The position numbers and the translations under genes were made by a program. Below the pieces are notes generated by a model. The model was not told the origin of the DNA. It made no database searches and saw only the letters and a list, made by a program, of their open reading frames with translations. From a virus, in the IMG/VR virus record IMGVR_UViG_3300032893_000078, positions 1 to 48,073 of that record: a stretch of DNA of 48,073 nt. One strand, 5' to 3'. This document shows, piece after piece, positions 4,251 to 35,929 of the stretch (position 1 is the first letter of the stretch; each line of letters begins with the position of its first letter).

Positions 4251-5887
4251 CAGCCCTCCACCTTGTGCACCAGGTTAGCCTCAGCTGCGCGGTACGTCTC
4301 TTTGTTGGCCTCGGACACGGCCTTTTTGACCTCGTCCGGCTTGGACCCTGGGGGCAGCGTGAAATTGTTCGTCTGATGTACGGTCGTATTGGTCGTGACC
4401 TGGGTCGCAGGCTTGCCCTGGCTGGCCATGAACGCAGCCACGTCTGGCCGGACTTCGCCCGCTGCTGCCAAGGCCGCGCCCAGGCTTGCAGGCTGTCCAG
4501 GCTGCTGCTGGTTGCCCATGGCCCCAAACGTTTTGAATAGATCTGCAACGCGGTCGGCGGACGACCCCAGACCCTTGTCTATGTCGGCCAGGTAATCCTT
4601 GTCGCTGGACATTTTCTTGAAATCACCTGTGTCCCCGCCATACAGGCCCAGGAACTGCGCGGCCTTGGCCGCGCCCACGATCACGTTGTGCAGGACGGCT
4701 TCCAGGTCCCCAAGCATGCGCCACACAAGCCGGCCCGCTGCCTCGACCACGCCGAACGTAGCTGTGAATACAAGCCCGATAGTCTGAATCAGGGCAAGAA
4801 TGCCCAGGGACAGGTCAGAGGCAGACTCAGACCTCTGTTCGAAATTGGTCAGGAGCCCCGCAACTTCTGAAGATACGGTCTTGATATTTTCAACGATTTT
4901 GGCCGTGGCCCCATCCCCAAAAATCGAGTCTACAAAGTCTTTGACATACGTGTCCCCGCCCTGGAACGTCGTGATCAGCTCGTCAACCAGGAGGACCAGG
5001 GCCGCAAACAGGACCGTTGGCAGACTGATCATTGACGCAAGCTTCGTGATAAACCCGAGAATGATCGGGAACTTAACGATCAGCATCCCAGTCAGGAGGG
5101 CCAGAACCGCGTTCGTTACTGCTCCCTTACGCTCCAGCGCGGTCAATTGCCTGACAAAGCCCTCCACGTAGTGAGCTGCCTTTTCTATGTACGGCAGGAA
5201 CTTGGACAGGATCTGAATGTTCAGGGCCTGGAATACACGGCTGACCCGCATTTGGGCCCCATGCACTTCTTCTGACTTTTCGATGAAATCGTCCGTGTAT
5301 CCACCCCCCAGCGCCTGGAACTCAGCTTTAAGTTTCTTGATCCCCTCCGCGCCCTGGTTTAGGAGGGGTAGGAGCCGGAACCCCCCACGACCAAACAGCA
5401 TCTTTACAAGCTGTTTCTTTTCTCCTTCGTTGGCCATGCCTTGGACTTTGTTCGCAAAATCATCCAGGAATTCCCCGACGTCCTTAACATTGCCCTCAGC
5501 ATCTTTCGCGGACAGTCCGACCCGGCTGAACATTTTCTGGATACCCGGGTTACCCTGGGCAGCCATGTACAGTTGACTCTGCAACCGGTTCAGGCTCATA
5601 CTGAAACCGTCCGCTGAGATGTGACTACGTTCAGCCGCGTACTGCCACAGTTGCAGCTGGTCCGCTGACATGCCGATTGTTTCGGCCTGTGTCTTAAGCT
5701 TGATCGCCCCCTCGGTCAGACTGTCGTACCATTCCCGGATTTCGTGCAGACCAAACGCTACCGCGACTGATGCGCCCAGGTGTTCCAGCTGCCCGATCAT
5801 GCCCTCGACAGACCGGTGCCCCTTTTCCAGCTGGTCAGTCTCAAATTCGACCCCGAATTTGGCTAGGATTTCACGTAGGGCGCTCAT
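4250..5887 (-). CDS. Tail tape measure protein
   Basis: A 545-aa protein, largely predicted helical, with hydrophobic segments in the middle (around residues 260-310: NAVLALLTGMLIVKFPIILG and SLPTVLFAALVLLVDELI). It begins with FGVEFETDQLEKGHRSVEGM, typical of tape measure N-termini. The protein sets tail length and is ejected with DNA. It lies straight after the tail chaperone and its frameshift extension, the near-universal position, and its ATG overlaps the extension's stop (ATGA). It is short for the class, which implies a fairly short tail. Confidence 0.88.
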   Translation of the reverse strand: MSALREILAKFGVEFETDQLEKGHRSVEGMIGQLEHLGASVAVAFGLHEIREWYDSLTEGAIKLKTQAETIGMSADQLQLWQYAAERSHISADGFSMSLNRLQSQLYMAAQGNPGIQKMFSRVGLSAKDAEGNVKDVGEFLDDFANKVQGMANEGEKKQLVKMLFGRGGFRLLPLLNQGAEGIKKLKAEFQALGGGYTDDFIEKSEEVHGAQMRVSRVFQALNIQILSKFLPYIEKAAHYVEGFVRQLTALERKGAVTNAVLALLTGMLIVKFPIILGFITKLASMISLPTVLFAALVLLVDELITTFQGGDTYVKDFVDSIFGDGATAKIVENIKTVSSEVAGLLTNFEQRSESASDLSLGILALIQTIGLVFTATFGVVEAAGRLVWRMLGDLEAVLHNVIVGAAKAAQFLGLYGGDTGDFKKMSSDKDYLADIDKGLGSSADRVADLFKTFGAMGNQQQPGQPASLGAALAAAGEVRPDVAAFMASQGKPATQVTTNTTVHQTNNFTLPPGSKPDEVKKAVSEANKETYRAAEANLVHKVEG

Positions 5888-23568: not shown

Positions 23569-23954
23569 CCAACCTTAGCCTGTCTCATGAACTCGAGCAA
23601 GCACTTTGTTTGCCATGCCAGGCCCTCGGTTTCCAGCTGCGTACCCTCAGCCAGTGCCGTGTAGTAGGCCAGGATCTGTAACTCCACGAGGTTGAGCCCG
23701 GTCAGGTCTCGACTGGGTGTGCCCTTGTCCGCGTCCAGCACGGCTGCCGTCTGTTTGTCCCGGGCCAGGCGTAGCTGGGCAAGCCGGGAAAAGGCCATGC
23801 TCTGGGCCCGGTCGTTCCCCTCGAGCCGGCACGCAGCATCCCAGGCAGCCTTGAACGCTGATTCAAACTGTTGTCGGTCCAAGATCTCAGCCTTGAGCCG
23901 GTCGGCCTCGGGCTTGAGTAGGTCTAAGAGCTGGTTTTGAGAGTATTCGGTCAT
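23565..23954 (-). CDS. Hypothetical helical protein coupled to terminase (129 aa)
   Basis: An all-helical protein (QLLDLLKPEADRLKAEILDR, FKAAWDAACRLEG, ALAEGTQLETEGLAWQTKCL). Its ATG overlaps the TerL stop (ATGA). A small terminase role could be imagined, but small subunits usually lie upstream of TerL and carry an HTH, which I cannot see here. It is best kept as unknown and packaging-associated by position. Confidence 0.6.
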   Translation of the reverse strand: MTEYSQNQLLDLLKPEADRLKAEILDRQQFESAFKAAWDAACRLEGNDRAQSMAFSRLAQLRLARDKQTAAVLDADKGTPSRDLTGLNLVELQILAYYTALAEGTQLETEGLAWQTKCLLEFMRQAKVG

Positions 23955-25390
23955 AGTCCTATTTTCTGCATTGCATCGAACATAGTCGATCGGTTCTGTT
24001 CTAGATGTAGCAGAGCCTGCGACATGGCATCGACCTGGTCGTCATGTTTTGCCCTAGGAAACCCTAGGATTTCCCTGAGAAACCCTGGCACCCAAGGAAC
24101 ACTCACAGGGGGGATCAGGACATTGCCCGCGCGCCACACGTAGCTGATTGCGTTGGCCCGGCTTACTTTTCCGCCCAAGGGTTTGATCGGGATAAGTCCT
24201 GTGACTGACTTGCTCAGCGCATCGATCACGGCCGGGCCATTGGCCTTGTCCTCTATCAGTTTCGCGCCTATGTATGGGTGCCGGCCAAGCACAGCCTTAA
24301 TCTGGGCCAGGGTTTCGGTAAACGACATGCGGTCCAGGACCTGGTCCAAGAGATAGTATTTGACCGCGTTCCCCTGGTACCCTACACCCCAGACCTGGAT
24401 CGACACATAGTCTGACCCGGTCGTGTCCTTGAACGTGCAGTCTACACTCAACACACGCTGGCCCGTTGTGGGGTACGTGGTCCAGTGCTGTATCCACTCA
24501 GCCTTGAACACTTCGCCCCCCGGGTTCATGGGCTGCTGTTGCAACTGGGCCGAGGCGTAGATGCCTAGGGCTGCCTCAAGTTTGGTCAGGGTCTTGTCAT
24601 TGAACCGGGCGGGCCACAAGAGCTGGCCCTCGACCGTGCGCTGGTCTAGTTCGCAGGCGCGCTCTGGGTCAAAGCGTGCGGGGAAGATCAGGGGCTTGGC
24701 TCGGTCCTTTTCCAGCAGATATCCAGCTAGGTCATCCTCGTGCAATCTTTGCATGATGATCATGTATCGGTCTAGCTGGTCCTTAGTCCTAGTGGTCATT
24801 GTACTGTCCCACCAGGTCTTACACTTGTCCAGTGCTGTCCGCGTTATGCTCGCGTTTCCAGTCGTGTCCAGCGGCTTGATGGCATCGTCCACGACCCTTA
24901 AATGAGCGTGGCGCCCCGTGGCCTTGCTTTCCACGCTCGTGGCAAATCTGAACCCGCCTGCTGTGTTCTGGATCAGGGTCTCAGCTGCCCTACCTGATTT
25001 GAACTTGAGCACGACCTCGGGCCACGTGCGCCTGTACCAGTCCGACTGCAGGATCTGCAGGGTCCTGCCCGCGTCACGCCGGCTAATGTCTATGTCAAAA
25101 CTGGCATAGATGCTGCAGAACCCTGGGTCAACAGTCCAGACCCAGGCAGGGAGCATGACCGCGAGCAGAATCGATTTCATGTGCCCGGGCGGCACGTTCA
25201 CAACCTGCCGAGCCCAGTCAGGATCACCCTTGACACATCGCTCCGCGGCCGTACAAATGGCCTGAATGTGCCAGTTCGGAACGTACTTGGTACTCGGTTC
25301 GATGATAGGCCAGGCCAGGCGTATGAACTCGAATAGCCCGCCCTGGGCTACAAGGGCCCTGTCAATCTCAGCCTGGGTTAATGGTCTCAC
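23951..25390 (-). CDS. terL: Terminase large subunit
   Basis: A 479-aa protein. The ATPase half has the Walker A-like NVPPGHMKS (around residue 85), Walker B LRVVDD and the coupling segment YMIIMQRLHEDDL. The nuclease half shows SVDCTF, KLIEDKANG and the final AKHDDQVDAMSQAL, the acidic set of the RNase H-like nuclease. It cuts and pumps DNA into the prohead. The GTG at 25390 lies six bases after a -10, so the gene appears leaderless. Portal and head genes follow downstream. Confidence 0.93.
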   Translation of the reverse strand: MRPLTQAEIDRALVAQGGLFEFIRLAWPIIEPSTKYVPNWHIQAICTAAERCVKGDPDWARQVVNVPPGHMKSILLAVMLPAWVWTVDPGFCSIYASFDIDISRRDAGRTLQILQSDWYRRTWPEVVLKFKSGRAAETLIQNTAGGFRFATSVESKATGRHAHLRVVDDAIKPLDTTGNASITRTALDKCKTWWDSTMTTRTKDQLDRYMIIMQRLHEDDLAGYLLEKDRAKPLIFPARFDPERACELDQRTVEGQLLWPARFNDKTLTKLEAALGIYASAQLQQQPMNPGGEVFKAEWIQHWTTYPTTGQRVLSVDCTFKDTTGSDYVSIQVWGVGYQGNAVKYYLLDQVLDRMSFTETLAQIKAVLGRHPYIGAKLIEDKANGPAVIDALSKSVTGLIPIKPLGGKVSRANAISYVWRAGNVLIPPVSVPWVPGFLREILGFPRAKHDDQVDAMSQALLHLEQNRSTMFDAMQKIGL

Positions 25391-25671: not shown

Positions 25672-25913
25672 TGAACCCCACCCAGTGCCTGGAACACACG
25701 TTTCGAGACCATGACCATGATTCCCTGGCTGTTAGGGTCCGTGTAGACGACCGCTTCCACGTGCCGTCCAGGATCCTTCTCAAAGTCAGCAGTGCACGAG
25801 GGCCAAACAAAGATCTCGCCGTCCCGTAGGAGTTTGGTTGGGGCTTCCGGGGACAGGGTCACGTGTGCCCCGCCCAGGGCCTGAATGAATTCCTCGACTG
25901 TGAGTGGGGTCAT
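25668..25913 (-). CDS. Hypothetical 81-aa protein
   Basis: It starts MTPLTVEEFIQALGGAHVTL; the ATG overlaps the stop of the beta-helix gene (ATGA). It has a helix, then alternating beta strands (VEAVVYTDPNSQGIMVMVSK). There are no clear motifs. It is a real gene by coupling on both sides. Confidence 0.6.
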   Translation of the reverse strand: MTPLTVEEFIQALGGAHVTLSPEAPTKLLRDGEIFVWPSCTADFEKDPGRHVEAVVYTDPNSQGIMVMVSKRVFQALGGVQ

Positions 25914-26989
25914 CCTGAGACCTCGCCAAAGACCTTGGCCTCGCCATAGACCAGGGCTTGGCCAAAGACCAGGGCTTGGCCAAAGACCAGGGCTTGGCCA
26001 CAGACCCAGGCCTTGTCATAGACCTTGGCCTCGCCAAAGACCCTGGCATTGCCACAGACCAGGGCCTTGTCGTAGACCAGGGCTTGGCCACAGACCTTGG
26101 CCTCGCCATAGACCCTGGCATTGTCAAAGACCTTGGCATTGTCAAAGACCTTGGCCTCGCCATAGACCTTGGCATTGCCAAAGACCCAGGCGTTGTCAGA
26201 GACCTTGGCCCCGCCAAAGACCTTGGCCTCGCCATAGACCTGGGCATTGTCATAGACCTTGGCATTGCCAAAGACCCAGGCGTTGTCAGAGACCTTGGCC
26301 CCGCCAAAGACCTTGGCATTGCCACAGACCAGGGCCTCGCCAAAGACCAGGGCCTGGCCGTAGACCTTGGCCTTGTCATAGACCTTGGCCCCGCCAGAGA
26401 CCTTGGCCTTGTCAGAGACCCAGGCCTCGCCATAGACCCAGGCATTGCCATAGACCTGGGCATTGCCAAAGACCTTGGCCCCGCCAGAGACCTTGGCCTT
26501 GTCATAGACCTGGGCCTCGCCATAGACCTGGGCATTGTCAGAGACCTGGGCCTCGCCATAGACCTGGGCATTGTCAGAGACCCAGGCTTGGCCAAAGACC
26601 TTGGCATTGTCATAGACCAGGGCCTCGCCAAAGACCAGGGCCTGGCCGTAGACCTTGGCCTTGTCATAGACCCAGGCCTGGCCATAGACCCAGGCCTTGT
26701 CATAGACCTTGGCCTCGCCATAGACCTGGGCATTGTCAGAGACCCAGGCTTGGCCAAAGACCTTGGCATTGTCATAGACCTTGGCCTCGCCATAGACCCT
26801 GGCATTGTCAAAGACCTTGGCATTGTCAAAGACCTTGGCCTCGCCATAGACCAGGGCTTTAGATCCTACGTAAGCCGTAGGATCTACCCTCGCCGTATCT
26901 GCGACCCAGCCTCCTCCGTTGCTGTGTCTATGGGCTGGGACAGGTCCTGCCCCAAAATCATAGGTTTGTGTTTGCTGTTGATTGGTCAT
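25910..26989 (-). CDS. Left-handed beta-helix protein of about 50 hexapeptide repeats
   Basis: A 359-aa protein. Residues 1-40 are a cap (GGGWVADTARVDPTAYVGSK). The rest is a near-perfect hexapeptide run: VYGEAK, VFDNAK, VYGQAW, VSDNAQ and so on, with V at position 1, G or D at 3 and A at 5. This is the signature of a left-handed parallel beta-helix, about 17 coils long. No acyltransferase His or C-terminal domain is seen. It may be a structural rod or binding scaffold. It has the best promoter in the window. The role of such proteins in phages is not known. Confidence 0.8.
   Translation of the reverse strand: MTNQQQTQTYDFGAGPVPAHRHSNGGGWVADTARVDPTAYVGSKALVYGEAKVFDNAKVFDNARVYGEAKVYDNAKVFGQAWVSDNAQVYGEAKVYDKAWVYGQAWVYDKAKVYGQALVFGEALVYDNAKVFGQAWVSDNAQVYGEAQVSDNAQVYGEAQVYDKAKVSGGAKVFGNAQVYGNAWVYGEAWVSDKAKVSGGAKVYDKAKVYGQALVFGEALVCGNAKVFGGAKVSDNAWVFGNAKVYDNAQVYGEAKVFGGAKVSDNAWVFGNAKVYGEAKVFDNAKVFDNARVYGEAKVCGQALVYDKALVCGNARVFGEAKVYDKAWVCGQALVFGQALVFGQALVYGEAKVFGEVSG
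25916..26862. repeat. Tandem 18-bp coding repeats of the beta-helix gene
   Basis: An array of degenerate 18-bp units such as CCATAGACCTTGGCCTCG and GTCAAAGACCTTGGCATT, with longer blocks repeated across tens of bases. Because the unit is a multiple of three, several frames on both strands stay open; only the minus frame gives the hexapeptide pattern and has a promoter. The number of units probably varies by slippage. Confidence 0.85.
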
Positions 26990-27022: not shown

Positions 27023-27295
27023 TCACTTTCCGAACACAGACCAAAGATCTATCGGAGGTCTAGGCCTAGTCCAGCGCCTGTACAGGACCACGTCACGTAC
27101 GACGGCCCGCGCCAGCTGATACTTGCGTGCCAAAGCAGCCTGGCCGTACCCCAGCACATGAGGCCTGTACTCGGCCCGGAGCTTGTCTACCAGTTCCCAG
27201 GTCAGCCGCGGGTGGGCTGGGTCGTGCTTTCCGGTCTTGGGGTTGACTCTGGTTGGATCTGGGACGTTGTAGTTTATCTGTCTGGCGTGGGTCAA
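27023..27295 (-). CDS. Putative HTH DNA-binding protein (90 aa)
   Basis: Read from a TTG at 27295 that lies 10 bases after a -10 TAGTCT. A longer frame to 27430 passes through the inverted repeat and codes an unlikely Cys/Pro/His-rich start. The C-terminal half has a helix-turn-helix like those at the ends of phage HNH proteins: LTWELVDKLRAEYRPH, GQAALARKYQLARAVV, RDVVLYRRW. There is no HNH motif left. Its place beside the iteron-like repeats suggests it could bind them. Confidence 0.55.
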   Translation of the reverse strand: MTHARQINYNVPDPTRVNPKTGKHDPAHPRLTWELVDKLRAEYRPHVLGYGQAALARKYQLARAVVRDVVLYRRWTRPRPPIDLWSVFGK

Positions 27296-27311: not shown

Positions 27312-27398
27312 GCACAGAATATTTGACACCCGACCACGACCAGATAAAATTTTAGGGCCGCTCGGCCGGGGTCGCGTTTTACCGCGTAGCTGAACTTT

Positions 27399-27508
27399 TG
27401 GTGACATGGGTGACATGGGTGACATTTCACACCCCGCTACACGATCAATATTTTGATTTGTTTCGTCAGACAGGTAGTAAAATGTCACCCATGTCACCCA
27501 TGTCACCA
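27399..27508. repeat. Iteron-like inverted repeat flanking an A+T-rich spacer
   Basis: A perfect 29-bp inverted repeat: arms 27399-27427 and 27480-27508, spacer 52 bp. Each arm is three tandem 9-mers of the type GGTGACATG. The spacer holds ATCAATATTTTGAT and is the most A+T-rich spot nearby. It sits just downstream of the primase-helicase gene and before the HTH gene. It is a candidate replication origin or regulator site. Confidence 0.85.
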
Positions 27509-27534: not shown

Positions 27535-27567
27535 AAAAAGGCCCACGGCTTTTAGGGTCCGTGGGCC
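27535..27567 (-). terminator. Terminator after primase-helicase
   Basis: A 9-bp stem GGCCCACGG/CCGTGGGCC (27567-27559 with 27548-27540), loop 10 nt, followed on the minus strand by TTTTTCG. It begins nine bases past the primase stop. Confidence 0.85.
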
Positions 27568-27575
27568 GGTAGGTA

Positions 27576-29951
27576 TCAGATCACGCGCCAGGAATATCCG
27601 CCGCCGTGTCCGACCCAACATCGTTCCAGTTTAAGCCCGCCAGCGATTCGGTCCCTGTGTTGCATTAGGGCGATTGATAGTTTCTTGCCCGTCAGCATGT
27701 CCGAAGTCTTGGCTTGACAGACGTCCGTCATGGCGTCAAGCAAGACCTCGCCCCCGGGCATGCGTGCCCTAGTCAAGAGTTCTTTCACCGTGACACGAGC
27801 GGGCCCAAACAGGTCTTTCCAGGCCTGGAGCATGTCCCCCAGCGCGCCCTTCTCGTCGCTGGCCGTCTCGCGCAGGGCCGCTTGAGTCTCTACAGGGTCC
27901 GCGGCACCAGCCCAAATCAGAGTCGATTGCACTAGTTCGGACCAGTCAGGATAACGGTTCATGCCTCGAGTGACAGCTGGGCGACCAGCAACCACGTACG
28001 CACGGAGCATCGTCAGGGCGGCAGACAGGTATTCGGACCGATGCTGGGCCGTGTGCGCTTCAATGTGAGGATAACGGAAATTACTCCTGGTCTCGGGGTG
28101 TTCAGTGTTTGGCACGAGCCGGCATAGCAGCGACCTGGTGACAAAGTCCTCTTCCAGTAACGCATTATTGCTCGTCATACAGAAGATCGTGCGCATCTCC
28201 ACTTCCCGGGTCGTGTTCGTGCCTAGCACGCGATCTTTGAATGACCCACCAGTCAGCACCTGTTCTAGTGGTTGATTCCTAAACAGGCCCTTGACATTAT
28301 CAAAAAGCACAATCGGGTCCGCTGCTAGTGCTATCGCCAGCATGTTTTTGCGGTTTTCCTCGTTATCAGAGCTGACCCCAGACCGCGCAAGGCTGTTTCC
28401 GGCTGTGATGATACCGATCAGCTCAGCCAGCTTGGTCTTGCCTGAGCTACGTTCCGATGCCTCGAATAGGACCATGGGACAAGGCCCGGCAATGGCTGGT
28501 CGAGCAACAGCAGACAGGAGCATGCTCAGCCACACAGCGCGGTGCGCCGGATTAATGAACGGAAAATCGCACACAAGATCGTCAAGCCGTTCCCTGGCCC
28601 GTATCGCGTCCTGCTGTGTAGGGGTTGACGGGACATAGATCTGGACCTGATTCTCACAGTACAGGCCTGTTTGCGGGTCGTAACCGCGGTCCTGCAATAT
28701 CGACCCATCCGGACGCATGACGGGCCACGTAGTGAACCCCATGAGCGGTCTGATGTTGGGCCATGCGGGGCGCACAGACACGTGTTCTGCTATGTGTCGA
28801 GCGACTGGTAGTTGTCTTTCCTCGTTCTTTTTCGTTTTACCGAAAAATGCCGCCCGCTGGTCAATGATTTCAACCAATCGAGTCAGAGCAATGTCCTTGA
28901 CCACTGTCGAACCCTGAGGTCGGATGATCCCGGTCGTGGACATGCGCGCAGTGTGCCCGATCTCGACTAGGGACCCTGACCGCTGATATATGTCTGCAGC
29001 AGCCAGAGCCCTGATCGTGTCATCCACTGTAGGCGTGATTTCGAGCCCTGGGTGAATCCGGCGCTTGAACATGAGCCGGAGCTCGTCTAACAGTTTTAGA
29101 AAATCCTCGCGCGGACCAAGGCGCGAGACTACGAGGCCGTGGAATCGGCTGTAGCCCGTGTGTGGTATGTCCTGCTCTACTGCAGCGTAGGTCGTGTCGA
29201 TCGCGTGTTCTACTTGGTCAGCCCCATCCCAACCTAAGGCTTCGTGCACCTGAAGCAAGTACTCTGTAGTTTGCCCTTGAGACCAGCCCCACTTAGCCAG
29301 GGCCCCCGACAGTGCCATGTACGCGTCTCGGCGCTCACCCTTTGCTGGAAAGGCTGATTCCAGTATGTCTTTCATTTTTTGGGTAGCGTCGCTGTAATCT
29401 GCTTTAGCTTGCTTGGCTGTTTGTACCCCCTGCACTGTCTGGAACGGTGCCCCGGGGTTATATTCGGCCCAGAATTCGTGACCCGGTGCGTGGCTGGGAA
29501 GGTAATAGAAGTGGCTGATGTCCCTGCACTTGGCGTCCAGTTTCCCGCCCAGCATATCCTGCAGTGCTTGCCAAGTGGCGTTGAATGTGTCCGGGTCCGC
29601 TGCCTTATCCAGAAGGAGCACACAGCGTACAGCACGTTCTGAGTAATTGTACGAGTGGGTCGTATACCAGACACACTCGTACGGGAGAAGACGGCCCCGG
29701 ACCTCTGCTAGGTCTGTTCCAGACAGGTGGTCAAAGTCCAGGATCATGGCCTGGGCTGACAGGGCCCCGGCCTTGCAGCGTCTATCCCTAAACGCGGTCA
29801 GGTTGAACAGCTCGACCGCGTGCTTACTTTCAGACTCAATGTGTGTGTTTAGAAGCCATTGTACAAGAGCGGACCAGGGACCATCCGCCCACTTACCGTA
29901 ATTGTCCTCCACACCCGAGTAGACGTTGTAGCGTACTATCGGCTCGGACAT
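27576..29951 (-). CDS. Primase-helicase (AEP-like primase plus SF3/AAA+ helicase)
   Basis: A 791-aa protein. Residues about 60-160 resemble an archaeo-eukaryotic-type primase core (AQAMILDFDHLSGTD; YTTHSYNYSERAVRCVLLLD; DISHFYYLPSHAPG). Residues 480-650 form the ATPase with Walker A FEASERSSGKTKL, Walker B DPIVLFDNV and sensor FCMTSNNALLEEDF. Together these would prime and unwind phage DNA. It ends beside a terminator and the iteron-like repeat. The start overlaps the RHH gene by 16 nt. Primase residues are by pattern; helicase is clear. Confidence 0.85.
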   Translation of the reverse strand: MSEPIVRYNVYSGVEDNYGKWADGPWSALVQWLLNTHIESESKHAVELFNLTAFRDRRCKAGALSAQAMILDFDHLSGTDLAEVRGRLLPYECVWYTTHSYNYSERAVRCVLLLDKAADPDTFNATWQALQDMLGGKLDAKCRDISHFYYLPSHAPGHEFWAEYNPGAPFQTVQGVQTAKQAKADYSDATQKMKDILESAFPAKGERRDAYMALSGALAKWGWSQGQTTEYLLQVHEALGWDGADQVEHAIDTTYAAVEQDIPHTGYSRFHGLVVSRLGPREDFLKLLDELRLMFKRRIHPGLEITPTVDDTIRALAAADIYQRSGSLVEIGHTARMSTTGIIRPQGSTVVKDIALTRLVEIIDQRAAFFGKTKKNEERQLPVARHIAEHVSVRPAWPNIRPLMGFTTWPVMRPDGSILQDRGYDPQTGLYCENQVQIYVPSTPTQQDAIRARERLDDLVCDFPFINPAHRAVWLSMLLSAVARPAIAGPCPMVLFEASERSSGKTKLAELIGIITAGNSLARSGVSSDNEENRKNMLAIALAADPIVLFDNVKGLFRNQPLEQVLTGGSFKDRVLGTNTTREVEMRTIFCMTSNNALLEEDFVTRSLLCRLVPNTEHPETRSNFRYPHIEAHTAQHRSEYLSAALTMLRAYVVAGRPAVTRGMNRYPDWSELVQSTLIWAGAADPVETQAALRETASDEKGALGDMLQAWKDLFGPARVTVKELLTRARMPGGEVLLDAMTDVCQAKTSDMLTGKKLSIALMQHRDRIAGGLKLERCWVGHGGGYSWRVI

Positions 29952-30289
29952 TTAGGCATCCTTCCGCGCATATACTCGTTGTATTCTGAATCAGTTAGAC
30001 CCATCCAGGCCTGGATACTTGTACCCATTCCGTCGAGCCCTTGTTGATATGCGAGGAAAAATGCGCCTACTGCCTGTTCTGGTGTGAAACGGCCGTGCTT
30101 GTACCAATATGAGACTGGGGAAACCTGATCCATTCTTGGTCCCACAGGGATGACCTTTGTCGGGTCTATGATCAATCTGCGTATTATCTCCACGTATGGT
30201 GCGCCCATACGTTCGGACAGTTCTTTTAGTTTCTGTAGCTCTCTTGGTCCAAGGTCTACAGATAGCCTCTTAGTGTTTTTTGCTGGCAT
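29936..30289 (-). CDS. Ribbon-helix-helix DNA-binding protein (117 aa)
   Basis: Residues 5-45 fit the Arc/CopG ribbon-helix-helix: RLSVDLGPRELQKLKELSER followed by MGAPYVEIIRRLIIDP. The C-terminal part is extra and unknown. It lies directly upstream of the primase gene and close to the divergent control region at 30.5 kb, so it is a good candidate early regulator. A -10 TAGGGT is 15 bases upstream of the ATG at 30289. Confidence 0.7.
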   Translation of the reverse strand: MPAKNTKRLSVDLGPRELQKLKELSERMGAPYVEIIRRLIIDPTKVIPVGPRMDQVSPVSYWYKHGRFTPEQAVGAFFLAYQQGLDGMGTSIQAWMGLTDSEYNEYMRGRMPKCPSR

Positions 30290-30539: not shown

Positions 30540-30644
30540 TGACCCCAGAACTCGGCCCAGCAGCTGAAACGCCCGCTGATTGACTATGACCAAGGGTATG
30601 TACTGCCTGACGTTCACGCGCTGCTGGGCCGAGTTCTGGGGTCA
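30540..30644. repeat. 25-bp perfect inverted repeat in divergent early control region
   Basis: Arms at 30540-30564 and 30620-30644 are exact reverse complements, with a 55-nt spacer. A second, nested pair ACCCTTGGT / ACCAAGGGT and a direct repeat ACTGCCTGAC (30534, 30602) lie in the same stretch. It sits just downstream of a good leftward promoter, so it would be the first part of the early leftward RNA. Confidence 0.85.
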
Positions 30645-32375: not shown

Positions 32376-34064
32376 ATGACCCAACCCGGCTTCTTACAAC
32401 GCCCGTCGGTCCTAGCCTCGTCCGAATTTCTCAGGGTGAACGCCCTGCCTCGGCGGGTCTGGGACTTTGACGGGCCCGAGGCCGCGACCCTGGCTGAGCA
32501 AATGACAGCCCTGCTCAGGACCCCCCAGGGCACAATGTCCCTCAAGCCGGTCCAGGCCGTGGCGTTGTTTGAAGCGTGGCGAGCCCGGGGCCTGTTCGGG
32601 GCCCTGGGGGTTGGGGCTGGAAAAACGCTCCTATTTTTCCTACTCCCGACCGTTCTAGAAAGTCAAAGACCGGTCCTGATCCTTCCCGCGAAACTGGCAG
32701 ACGAAAAAACGAAAAAGGAATGGGCCCAGTACGCCGCGCATTGGCGCATTCCTGCCCCTCATTTAGTCTCATACGAGCTGCTGGCTCGGGTCCAGAGTAA
32801 GACACTGTTACAGGATCTGAACCCGGACCTCGTCATGTGTGATGAGGCACACAAGCTTAAGAACACGCACGCCGCCGTGACCAGGAGGGTCAAGGCCTGG
32901 CGCAAGGCCAACCCGACCGTGCCTCTGTGCATCGGGTCAGGGTCAGTGACCAAACGGTCAATCAGGGATTACGCGCATCTGCTGGCCTGGACCCTGGGGC
33001 TCGGTTCGCCCCTCCCACTACGTGACGACGATCTGGAAAACTGGGCTTTTGCATTAGACGGCGGTACTACGTTTGCAAACCGTTTGGAGCCTGGGGCGTT
33101 GTTGGCTTGGGCTGAGGGTGAGGACCTGACCGACGAGACCGCGGCGGCCCGCCGAGGATTCCAGCGACGTCTGGCCCAGACCCCGGGCGTGGTCGTGTAC
33201 CACGTACCCCAAGACAACATTGGGGCCGAGATAGAGATTACGGCCCAGGTGCTCATGCCGCCCCCTGAAATGACACAGGCTTGGGAAGCATTGCGGGACC
33301 GGTGGGAGCTACCTGACGGGACAGAACTCGTGGAAGGTTGCGAGGTCTATAGACACGCCCGCGAGCTAGCCAAAGGCTTCTATTACAAGTGGCGCAGGCC
33401 GGGCCCCGACCCTTGGATGCAAGCGCGCAAAACGTATGGTCAGTTCACGCGAGAGAAGCTGAAAACCGGTCGCTGGGACAGTCCGGACGAGGTCGCCAAG
33501 GCGTTTCCCAACGCGGCGGAAGTGACCGAGTGGCAGGCAATTCGAAACACGTTTGAACCAGAGACCTGTATCGTGTGGCTCTCGACCCATGCCCTGCAGG
33601 TGTGCGCGGACTGGCTTAAGGGGGGCGGGGTCTGTTTCGTGGAACACGTGTTATTTGCCCAGGCCCTGGCTTTTCTGGCCAAGGTCCCGTTCTTTGGTCG
33701 GGGCGGCCTGGACGCGAACGGGGCTTCGATTGAACATTTCAAGGGCAAGGCCTGCATTGCGTCCCTTGGTTCTAACACTGAGGGCCGAAACCTGCAACAT
33801 TTTTCCAGGATGCTCGTTGTAAACCCGGTACCTAACGGGCTACAGCTAGAGCAATTGCTCGGTAGGGAACACAGAGAGGGCCAGGAGGCCGACACGGTCG
33901 AGGTCACGATACTGTTTGGCTGCTACGAGGACGCGGCCGCGTTCTGGGCTTCGGTGAATGATGCCAAGACCGACACCGTACACAATAACCACAAAGTACT
34001 CATGAGTAAGATTCAGGCCTCGGAAATGTGGGAGCTGCCCCAGGAAAAAGCGTTCCAGAAGTGA
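32376..34064 (+). CDS. SNF2-like SF2 helicase
   Basis: A 562-aa protein with helicase motif I GVGAGKTLLFF (residue 80), Ia PVLILPAKLADE, II VMCDEAHKLKN (DEAH) and III-like LCIGSGSV. The C-terminal lobe has ACIASLGSNTEGRNLQHFSR and motif VI QLLGREHREGQ. It is an SF2 protein of the SNF2-like type found in many phages near RecB-like nucleases. It may remodel or unwind DNA in recombination or late replication. AAGGCGG precedes the ATG. Confidence 0.88.
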   Translation: MTQPGFLQRPSVLASSEFLRVNALPRRVWDFDGPEAATLAEQMTALLRTPQGTMSLKPVQAVALFEAWRARGLFGALGVGAGKTLLFFLLPTVLESQRPVLILPAKLADEKTKKEWAQYAAHWRIPAPHLVSYELLARVQSKTLLQDLNPDLVMCDEAHKLKNTHAAVTRRVKAWRKANPTVPLCIGSGSVTKRSIRDYAHLLAWTLGLGSPLPLRDDDLENWAFALDGGTTFANRLEPGALLAWAEGEDLTDETAAARRGFQRRLAQTPGVVVYHVPQDNIGAEIEITAQVLMPPPEMTQAWEALRDRWELPDGTELVEGCEVYRHARELAKGFYYKWRRPGPDPWMQARKTYGQFTREKLKTGRWDSPDEVAKAFPNAAEVTEWQAIRNTFEPETCIVWLSTHALQVCADWLKGGGVCFVEHVLFAQALAFLAKVPFFGRGGLDANGASIEHFKGKACIASLGSNTEGRNLQHFSRMLVVNPVPNGLQLEQLLGREHREGQEADTVEVTILFGCYEDAAAFWASVNDAKTDTVHNNHKVLMSKIQASEMWELPQEKAFQK

Positions 34065-34409: not shown

Positions 34410-34973
34410 ATGACATTCCCATTCCAAGCCCCAACCACACCCATAGCACCCCCCAGCCCCTTTGCAGCATTTGCGGGACTCGAACCAGCATCAGGCTCCA
34501 GCGGTGCCCCATTTCTGCCCAATGGTGACTACGGCCTCGAAGTAACGATCGCGGACATGGTCTACCACCCAGCAAAGGGCACGTCCGTTGCTTGCATCGA
34601 AACCACGTTGCAGGTGGAAAAGGTCCTGTTTGGTTCAGCAGCAGAGGCAGACAAAGCCGAGCTCCTGACCCCAGGCACGAAACTGTCTGAACGTCGCGAA
34701 ATCGATACCCCGGCCAAAATGTCGTACCACGTCAACCTAATGTTGGCAGCGATCGGGGTCAAGGCCTCGGACAAAGCTCAGGTTGCAGGGTACCAGGCAT
34801 ACATGCCCCAGTTCATCGAAGCGGCCTGCTCAAAGGTACCACAGAAGGTTGGCGACCAGACTGTTGACCCCAGCCTGGTCATTGGTCGTAAGTTGACCGT
34901 CGTGTGTAACTCGGCCAAGAAACCCAGCAAGGGTGGGCACTATATCCCGTTCAAGACCTGGGCCCCGGTCTGA
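34410..34973 (+). CDS. Candidate ssDNA-binding protein
   Basis: A 187-aa protein with a Pro/Ala-rich N-terminus and a central beta-rich core (NGDYGLEVTIADMVYHPAKG; CIETTLQVEKVLFG), ending GRKLTVVCNSAKKPSKGGHY-IPFKTW. Phage proteins of this layout (DUF669-like) are found in recombination and replication clusters and are thought to bind single strands. AAGGAAA lies eight bases before the ATG. It sits between helicase and methylase genes. A palindrome follows. Function is inferred. Confidence 0.55.
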   Translation: MTFPFQAPTTPIAPPSPFAAFAGLEPASGSSGAPFLPNGDYGLEVTIADMVYHPAKGTSVACIETTLQVEKVLFGSAAEADKAELLTPGTKLSERREIDTPAKMSYHVNLMLAAIGVKASDKAQVAGYQAYMPQFIEAACSKVPQKVGDQTVDPSLVIGRKLTVVCNSAKKPSKGGHYIPFKTWAPV

Positions 34974-35055: not shown

Positions 35056-35087
35056 TGTCCCCAGACCAGGATCCTGGTCTGGGGACA
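35056..35087. repeat. 32-bp perfect palindrome (operator or terminator)
   Basis: An uninterrupted 16+16 palindrome centred on GGATCC (arm TGTCCCCAGACCAGGA). It lies 83 bp after the candidate ssDNA-binding gene and 17 bp before the first D12 methylase. There is no T-run, so a simple terminator is less likely than an operator or processing site. Confidence 0.8.
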
Positions 35088-35104: not shown

Positions 35105-35929
35105 ATGCCAAGAGAGACAATCGCACCTTTTCCCTATCCTGGAGGTAAAACTGGGGCCGCAGCTATCGTCTGGTGTGCGTTCGCAGATTGCAACAGCTAC
35201 GTAGAACCCTTTTGCGGGTCAGCGGCTGTGTTCTTGGTCCGACCAAAGAAACTACGATTTGAAACACTGAACGATGCATCCGGATTCATTGTCAATTTTC
35301 ACCGGTCAGTCCAGCGCGAGCCTGAAACAGTTGCAGCCTGGACACAGCAGATCCGATCAGAAATAGAACTGTGCGCAGCCGGGCGCTGGCTCCTGTCTCT
35401 TGACCTGTCCCGGAAGCTGAAACAGGACCTGAACTATTACGATCCGCAGGCAGCTGGTATCTGGGCCTGGTACACGTCAACGACTATCGGCGCCAAAGTC
35501 ACGGGTTCTGAGCATCAACAGCCGAGGATGATACGTCAGGGGGTCATTGGTGAACGCAAGGCACCGAAGATGCCCCAGATTCTAGCAGACATGCAGGAGC
35601 GTCTAGCTGATGCGCGTATACTGTGCGGCGACTGGAAGGCCTGTCTCGGCCCGGCAAATCATCAGGATGCCTGGAAGACAGACCCGATCGGGGTATTTCT
35701 TGACCCGCCCTATAAGGGTTTCGAGATCTACAACGAGGGTGAAAAGGGTATGCAGGAGGACGTGCGGGCCTGGGCACTAGAGCACGGAACCGATCCGGCA
35801 TATAGAATCGTGTTATGCGGATATGCCGGTGAGCACGAAATGCCTGGCTGGCACGCAGTCCCTTGGAAAACACAAGGCCGCGTCGCACGTAAGCACCAAG
35901 AAATGTTATGGGTTAGTCCCAATTGTTAG
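35105..35929 (+). CDS. D12-class adenine-N6 DNA methyltransferase (first)
   Basis: A 274-aa protein with the SAM motifs FPYPGGKTG at residue 9 and VEPFCGSAAVF at 36, and the catalytic motif LDPPYKG near residue 200 (DPPY marks N6-adenine methylation). The central domain (DLSRKLKQDLNYYDPQAAGI) would recognise the target. GAGGG lies five bases before the ATG. No cognate nuclease is adjacent. It probably marks phage DNA against host restriction. Confidence 0.88.
   Translation: MPRETIAPFPYPGGKTGAAAIVWCAFADCNSYVEPFCGSAAVFLVRPKKLRFETLNDASGFIVNFHRSVQREPETVAAWTQQIRSEIELCAAGRWLLSLDLSRKLKQDLNYYDPQAAGIWAWYTSTTIGAKVTGSEHQQPRMIRQGVIGERKAPKMPQILADMQERLADARILCGDWKACLGPANHQDAWKTDPIGVFLDPPYKGFEIYNEGEKGMQEDVRAWALEHGTDPAYRIVLCGYAGEHEMPGWHAVPWKTQGRVARKHQEMLWVSPNC

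Follow-up and report, generated by a model that had tools for sequence, protein, structure and literature searches.

An array of inverted tandem iterons just past a primase-helicase gene is very probably the replication origin of the phage that carries it, or the initiator-binding part of that origin, as judged from its sequence and from comparison with other loci. The DNA analyzed is the virus record IMGVR_UViG_3300032893_000078 of IMG/VR, and the window is its whole length of 48,073 bp. The array and its surroundings comprise the following features:

27023..27295, minus strand: next gene past the array, encoding a small protein with weak helix-turn-helix (HTH) similarity; its open frame reaches back to 27430
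27323..27350, plus strand: sigma-70-like promoter match, TTGACA-16-TAAAAT, 11/12 to consensus
27399..27427, plus strand: left arm, composed of the 9-bp iterons GGTGACATG GGTGACATG GGTGACATT in tandem, units at 27400, 27409 and 27418
27428..27479, no strand: 52-bp core, candidate unwinding region, with ATCAATATTTTGAT at 27444-27457
27480..27508, minus strand: right arm, inverted copy of the three left-arm iterons, with TGTCACC at 27483, 27492 and 27501
27535..27567, minus strand: intrinsic terminator for the primase transcript, with a 9-bp stem and a 10-nt loop followed by TTTTT
27576..29951, minus strand: 791-aa primase-helicase P0001, the presumed initiator, identified by PHROG matches

A sequence-only reading of this DNA had proposed a perfect 29-bp inverted repeat of triple 9-mers around an A+T-rich core, and both the sequence and a repeat search confirm it at 27399-27427/27480-27508. 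The left arm is TGGTGACATGGGTGACATGGGTGACATTT and the right arm its exact reverse complement, 29 bp each with 52 bp between them; if extended, the repeat covers 32 bp at 97%. Each arm consists of three copies of the 9-bp unit GGTGACAT(G/T), with the heptamer GGTGACA on the plus strand at 27400, 27409 and 27418. Describing these units as "GGTGACATG-type" was fair, because the third ends in T (GGTGACATT). A repeat of this length is not due to chance: with spacers of up to 150 bp allowed, perfect inverted repeats in 20 shuffles of the whole record reached a maximum of 10-13 bp. The A+T richness holds for the center of the core, which is 58% A+T over its 52 bp compared with 42.5% for the record, and whose best 25 bp reach 76%, a value matched by only 0.07% of the record's windows. 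As a single strand, the array is predicted to fold into a very stable 110-bp stem-loop (DNA fold z = -9). The earlier suggestion to look for the 9-mer elsewhere in the genome was followed with the 17-mer GGTGACATGGGTGACAT, which, at up to two mismatches across the record, has no site besides the array. Compared as DNA with known phages and plasmids, the array site gave matches at chance level only.

Two further symmetric sequences occur in the record. The first is a second perfect inverted repeat (30540-30564/30620-30644, 25-bp arms, 55-nt spacer; RNA fold z -8.5), situated between the leftward primase operon and a divergent rightward operon. No GGTGACA units are present in it, and it could be an operator, an attenuator or a second replication or other cis element. 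The other is a perfect 32-bp palindrome, TGTCCCCAGACCAGGATCCTGGTCTGGGGACA, at 35056-35087, in the gap between frames ending at 34973 and starting at 35105. The cumulative GC-skew minimum lies at 33021, 5.6 kb from the array, which counts against the origin reading; GC skew in this record also follows gene direction.

The array occupies the interval between the end of the 791-aa minus-strand gene (27576-29951) and the small minus-strand gene, beginning 68 bp past the primase-helicase stop codon and behind that gene's intrinsic terminator, which separates the gene from the array. This terminator had been predicted and is indeed present (stem 27540-27567, then TTTTT; -21.3 kcal/mol for a 64-nt stretch, z -2.55). 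The other proposed flank, an HTH gene, is less secure in its identity, the best match of the encoded protein being phrog_517 at E = 0.083 and the position of its start codon being tentative. Further along, at 25910-26989 on the minus strand, a gene with tandem units of 18 nt encodes a long, repetitive beta-solenoid protein of YdcK-type/hexapeptide repeats; long open frames are present on the opposite strand as well.

P0001 has an N-terminal primase-like region (residues 71-167, phrog_9765) and an SF3/AAA+-like region (residues 317-729; phrog_29234, phrog_10537 and phrog_19930) in the PHROG search, the latter families comprising DNA polymerase/primase and large uncharacterized phage proteins. 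The protein has no Pfam match, and the SF3 label therefore rests on these PHROG links together with visible Walker-like motifs; a PDB sequence search likewise gave no significant match. No close relative of the protein was found in the viral contigs searched, and its best identity among phage proteins is below 60%. Its profile family includes proteins of vir525, Rctr197k, RpAliso, CcrColossus and phiAsp2 (L168-L173), along with those of loci L103, L111 and L115; two protein alignments (A2, A3) had diverged too far to be scanned for a pattern. The full-length structure prediction had too low a pLDDT (42.5) to be usable. A model of the C-terminal piece suggests, at low confidence (pLDDT 53), a winged-helix-like order of elements, and a structural search with this pLDDT 53 model returned no significant match.

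Similar arrays also follow related genes chosen without regard to their flanks. Using a protein profile alone, we collected P0001-family members among 246 Planctomycetota genomes. In each, a detector of inverted tandem repeats with unit 7 and period 8-10 was applied to the 300 bp that begin 30 bp before the stop codon, with stretches inside the gene and further downstream as controls. Arrays were found at the stop in 12/34 members compared with 4/162 controls, and in 9/31 compared with 4/162 once ascertained loci were removed (Fisher p = 1.1e-5); the remaining 22 of the 34 have no array by this detector, which counts against the origin reading. A second set of unselected loci, mostly D5_N genes from other phyla, contained arrays in 18 of 35 cases before exclusions, and in 12/29 compared with 3/73 controls after removal of ascertained loci and four simple-repeat cases (p = 9.8e-6). 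Individual array calls are less certain than these totals, given a simple detector whose null was generated by shuffling dinucleotide blocks. The comparison thus supports the proposal of a candidate origin made from the sequence, with inverted iterons past primase-helicase genes far above control frequency.

Among the array-bearing members, the iteron words vary (GGTGACTC, GGTGAGTTT, TGCAGAGGA, TTGGGACAC, GGGGTAAC and others), and the layout is constant: directly past the stop codon, arms with 2-5 units each flank a core some tens of base pairs long. Tandem units are retained even where the arms are imperfect, as in L010, L175 and L187. The best phage relative, Methanosarcinales virus vir525 (L168), carries past its primase gene a GCGGGTAT repeat unlike GGTGACA. 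Scattered GCGGGTAT/ATACCCGC repeats occupy both strands at 4390-4710 of vir525, directly after that gene; they were not scored significant by the detector, a further point against the origin reading, and are possibly an origin with a different iteron. In a profile comparison, the C-terminal domains of the P0001 and D5 families did not align, so the similar GTGA-containing iterons of separate lineages may be convergent. A link between C-terminal clade and GTGA iterons, drawn post hoc from 16 members and with exceptions, is suggestive only.

We also searched viral contigs and bacterial and archaeal genomes from the motif, requiring two GGTGACA units facing two inverted units. This identified 18 viral and 34 genomic loci, and a scrambled heptamer gave no matches in the viral contigs. 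A primase-helicase gene lies within 300 bp in 11 of the 18 viral loci, with the array past its stop codon in 9 of those. The share is lower among the genomic loci (9/34), because several of these belong to other repeat types. Within the 2-8 Mb genomes that hold such loci, the tandem pair occurs only at the array site, or at two places in the case of one genome. The opposite arrangement of units (<< >>) also adjoins primases, as in P4, and orientation alone is therefore not diagnostic; the scrambled heptamer was used as the control in its place. Three of the motif matches, L103, L111 and L115, encode the same primase family as P0001. Despite primase identities to P0001 of just 27% (L103) and 35% (L111/L175), these distant members of the family keep the array, with GGTGACA at period 9 and some three units on each side, located at the stop codon or no more than about 30 bp from it, again in favor of an origin. 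In L115, the array sits 1.2 kb further downstream of the primase gene.

Other sequences matched the same patterns. An exact search with the 25-mer GGTGACATGGGTGACATGGGTGACA gave eight matches, of which L005 and L010 are relevant; the other six were rejected as single-orientation runs within repeat-rich sequence rather than inverted arrays. In L006, L007, L009 and L011, GGTGACATGGGTGACATGGGTGACA falls in apparent acidic repeat genes of low-GC phages and reads as Gly-Asp-Met repeats, genes that look like a coding source of this word. In one Prevotellaceae assembly (L124, L129, L131, L133), inverted GGTGACAGG arrays that are almost identical and have a CGCG-rich core recur on at least four contigs, and because their neighbor genes differ, we regard these as a multicopy element and not as single origins. 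In Thermophilibacter/Olsenella genomes (L109, L116, L125, L126, L130, L138), GGTGACA and GGGTAAAT-type words form nested palindromes at several places; these repeats are of another kind but fit the same search pattern.

These searches bear on whether the array might instead be an operator, bound by the HTH protein (27023) or by the ribbon-helix-helix (RHH)-like protein encoded at 29936-30289 and controlling either the small gene to the left or a promoter directed rightward. The array does lie upstream of the HTH gene, and the near-consensus sigma-70-like promoter match (27323-27350) faces it, opposite in direction to the primase gene. Against an operator, however, neither protein has a homolog at the other array loci, where the recurring neighbor is the primase-helicase. 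Furthermore, the motif pair is single-site in the record, unlike multi-site operator systems, and arrays follow the primase stop codon without a fixed promoter position. We consider an operator very unlikely. The sequence-only reading's suggestion that the HTH protein binds the array is for the same reason not supported: with no counterpart of its gene at other loci, the primase-helicase P0001 is the likelier initiator.

The reading of the array as an origin also agrees with published origins, those of P4, SaPI, SCCmec and pRN1. In the crr region of P4, iterons of 8-9 bp likewise follow the alpha gene and its terminator; they point both ways and surround an A+T-rich stretch. The annotated type 1 repeats of crr are GGTGAACA-like, in both orientations, and the iteron GGTGAACA resembles the GGTGACA(T) of our array. 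P4 differs in using an additional element, ori1, located at a great distance from its gene, and in that its first crr repeats are arranged << >> whereas those described here are >>> <<<. Its alpha protein has a Toprim-type primase (PMC4234260), and in a profile comparison no C-terminal sequence similarity was detectable between the P4-type and P0001 families. The Rep protein of SaPI and the Cch2 protein of SCCmec are self-loading helicases, proposed to act as two hexamers. Each uses its C-terminal domain to recognize repeats lying immediately behind its own gene, and in the case of Cch2 the importance of both this domain and the AAGTG repeats was demonstrated (PMC7581432). Both systems thus share with our array short repeats just past the helicase gene, although the iteron sequence differs (AAGTG in SCCmec) and P0001 has no Pfam match to those helicases.

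The stem-loop geometry has its closest parallel in pRN1, which requires a stem-loop of about 100 bp behind the gene and terminator, with a 21-nt stem and a 58-nt loop, and whose orf904 protein combines a primase, an SF3 helicase and a C-terminal DNA-binding domain (PMC4234260). Our array shares the terminator past the stop codon and the stem-loop of about 100 bp, here with a stem of 29 and a loop of 52. It differs in its arms, each of three tandem 9-mers; the pRN1 origin is reported to be without iterons (PMC4234260). The authors of the pRN1 study also propose a stem-loop origin for Bordetella phage BIP-1, and report no identified binding motif (PMC4234260). In BPP-1, we found a single imperfect inverted pair of 23 nt whose halves are 52 nt apart; tandem units were looked for in this stem-loop and none were seen, in contrast to the iteron arms described here. 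The array therefore combines P4-like iterons with a pRN1-like stem-loop, the iterons forming the arms.

Since pRN1 requires the stem-loop itself (PMC4234260), one might ask whether our array is structural only, that is, an extruded hairpin, an attenuator or the termini of some small transposable element, without a sequence-specific initiator. The very stable fold of the 29-bp arms would fit such an element, as would the presence of another perfect 25-bp inverted repeat at 30540-30644. Against it, the arms are tandem 9-mers and not arbitrary sequence, and the relatives with imperfect arms nevertheless keep these units. The array is also single-copy in the record and lies beyond the terminator, outside the primase transcript. 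A purely structural role is accordingly very unlikely.

Among the closest counterparts is also the phage L010 (IMG/VR 3300036851_000137), which has an identical first arm (GGTGACATG three times), a 55-bp core and three inverted units, 16 bp from a primase gene, in the same order of primase, array and DNA-binding-type gene. Its primase is D5-type, however, and its sequence is unrelated outside the iterons. By inspection, the gene past the L010 array resembles a small terminase subunit, and the large terminase subunit gene of our phage lies at 23951-25390, 2 kb from the array. Both would suit a packaging (pac/cos) site bound by the small terminase subunit. P4, however, shares the layout after its alpha gene in a record that annotates no terminase, and the neighbor that recurs across loci is a primase-helicase and not a terminase gene, making a packaging site highly improbable.

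By analogy with P4, SaPI, SCCmec Cch2 and pRN1, the array would most likely function as an origin as follows. The C-terminal domain of P0001 would bind the 9-bp iterons on both arms, and two oppositely facing helicase rings would assemble on the inverted arms. The A+T-rich center would then melt and the rings load, both strands would be primed, and replication would proceed bidirectionally, with extension by the phage's own PolA-type polymerase or by host enzymes.

Together, these findings place the site as an additional member of the origin type known from P4, SaPI, SCCmec and pRN1, and they provide a precise pair of candidate origin and initiator for a phage without a close relative in the collections searched. 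They also suggest a rule for finding origins in unstudied phages and prophages, namely to look for inverted tandem repeats just past the primase-helicase stop codon. More interesting than the single site is the broader regularity. The chances are about even that inverted tandem iterons past the gene characterize primase-helicases of phages and prophages in general (the P0001 family and the D5-type) and evolve fast, with initiator and iteron changing together, the layout staying fixed and GTGA-containing iterons recurring in separate lineages. Because the iteron differs between relatives while its position is constant, collected pairs could reveal how these helicases recognize DNA. If this regularity holds, the iteron origins of P4 and SaPI and the stem-loop origins of pRN1 and BPP-1 would fall into a single scheme, and origins and their recognition rules would become readable from sequence.
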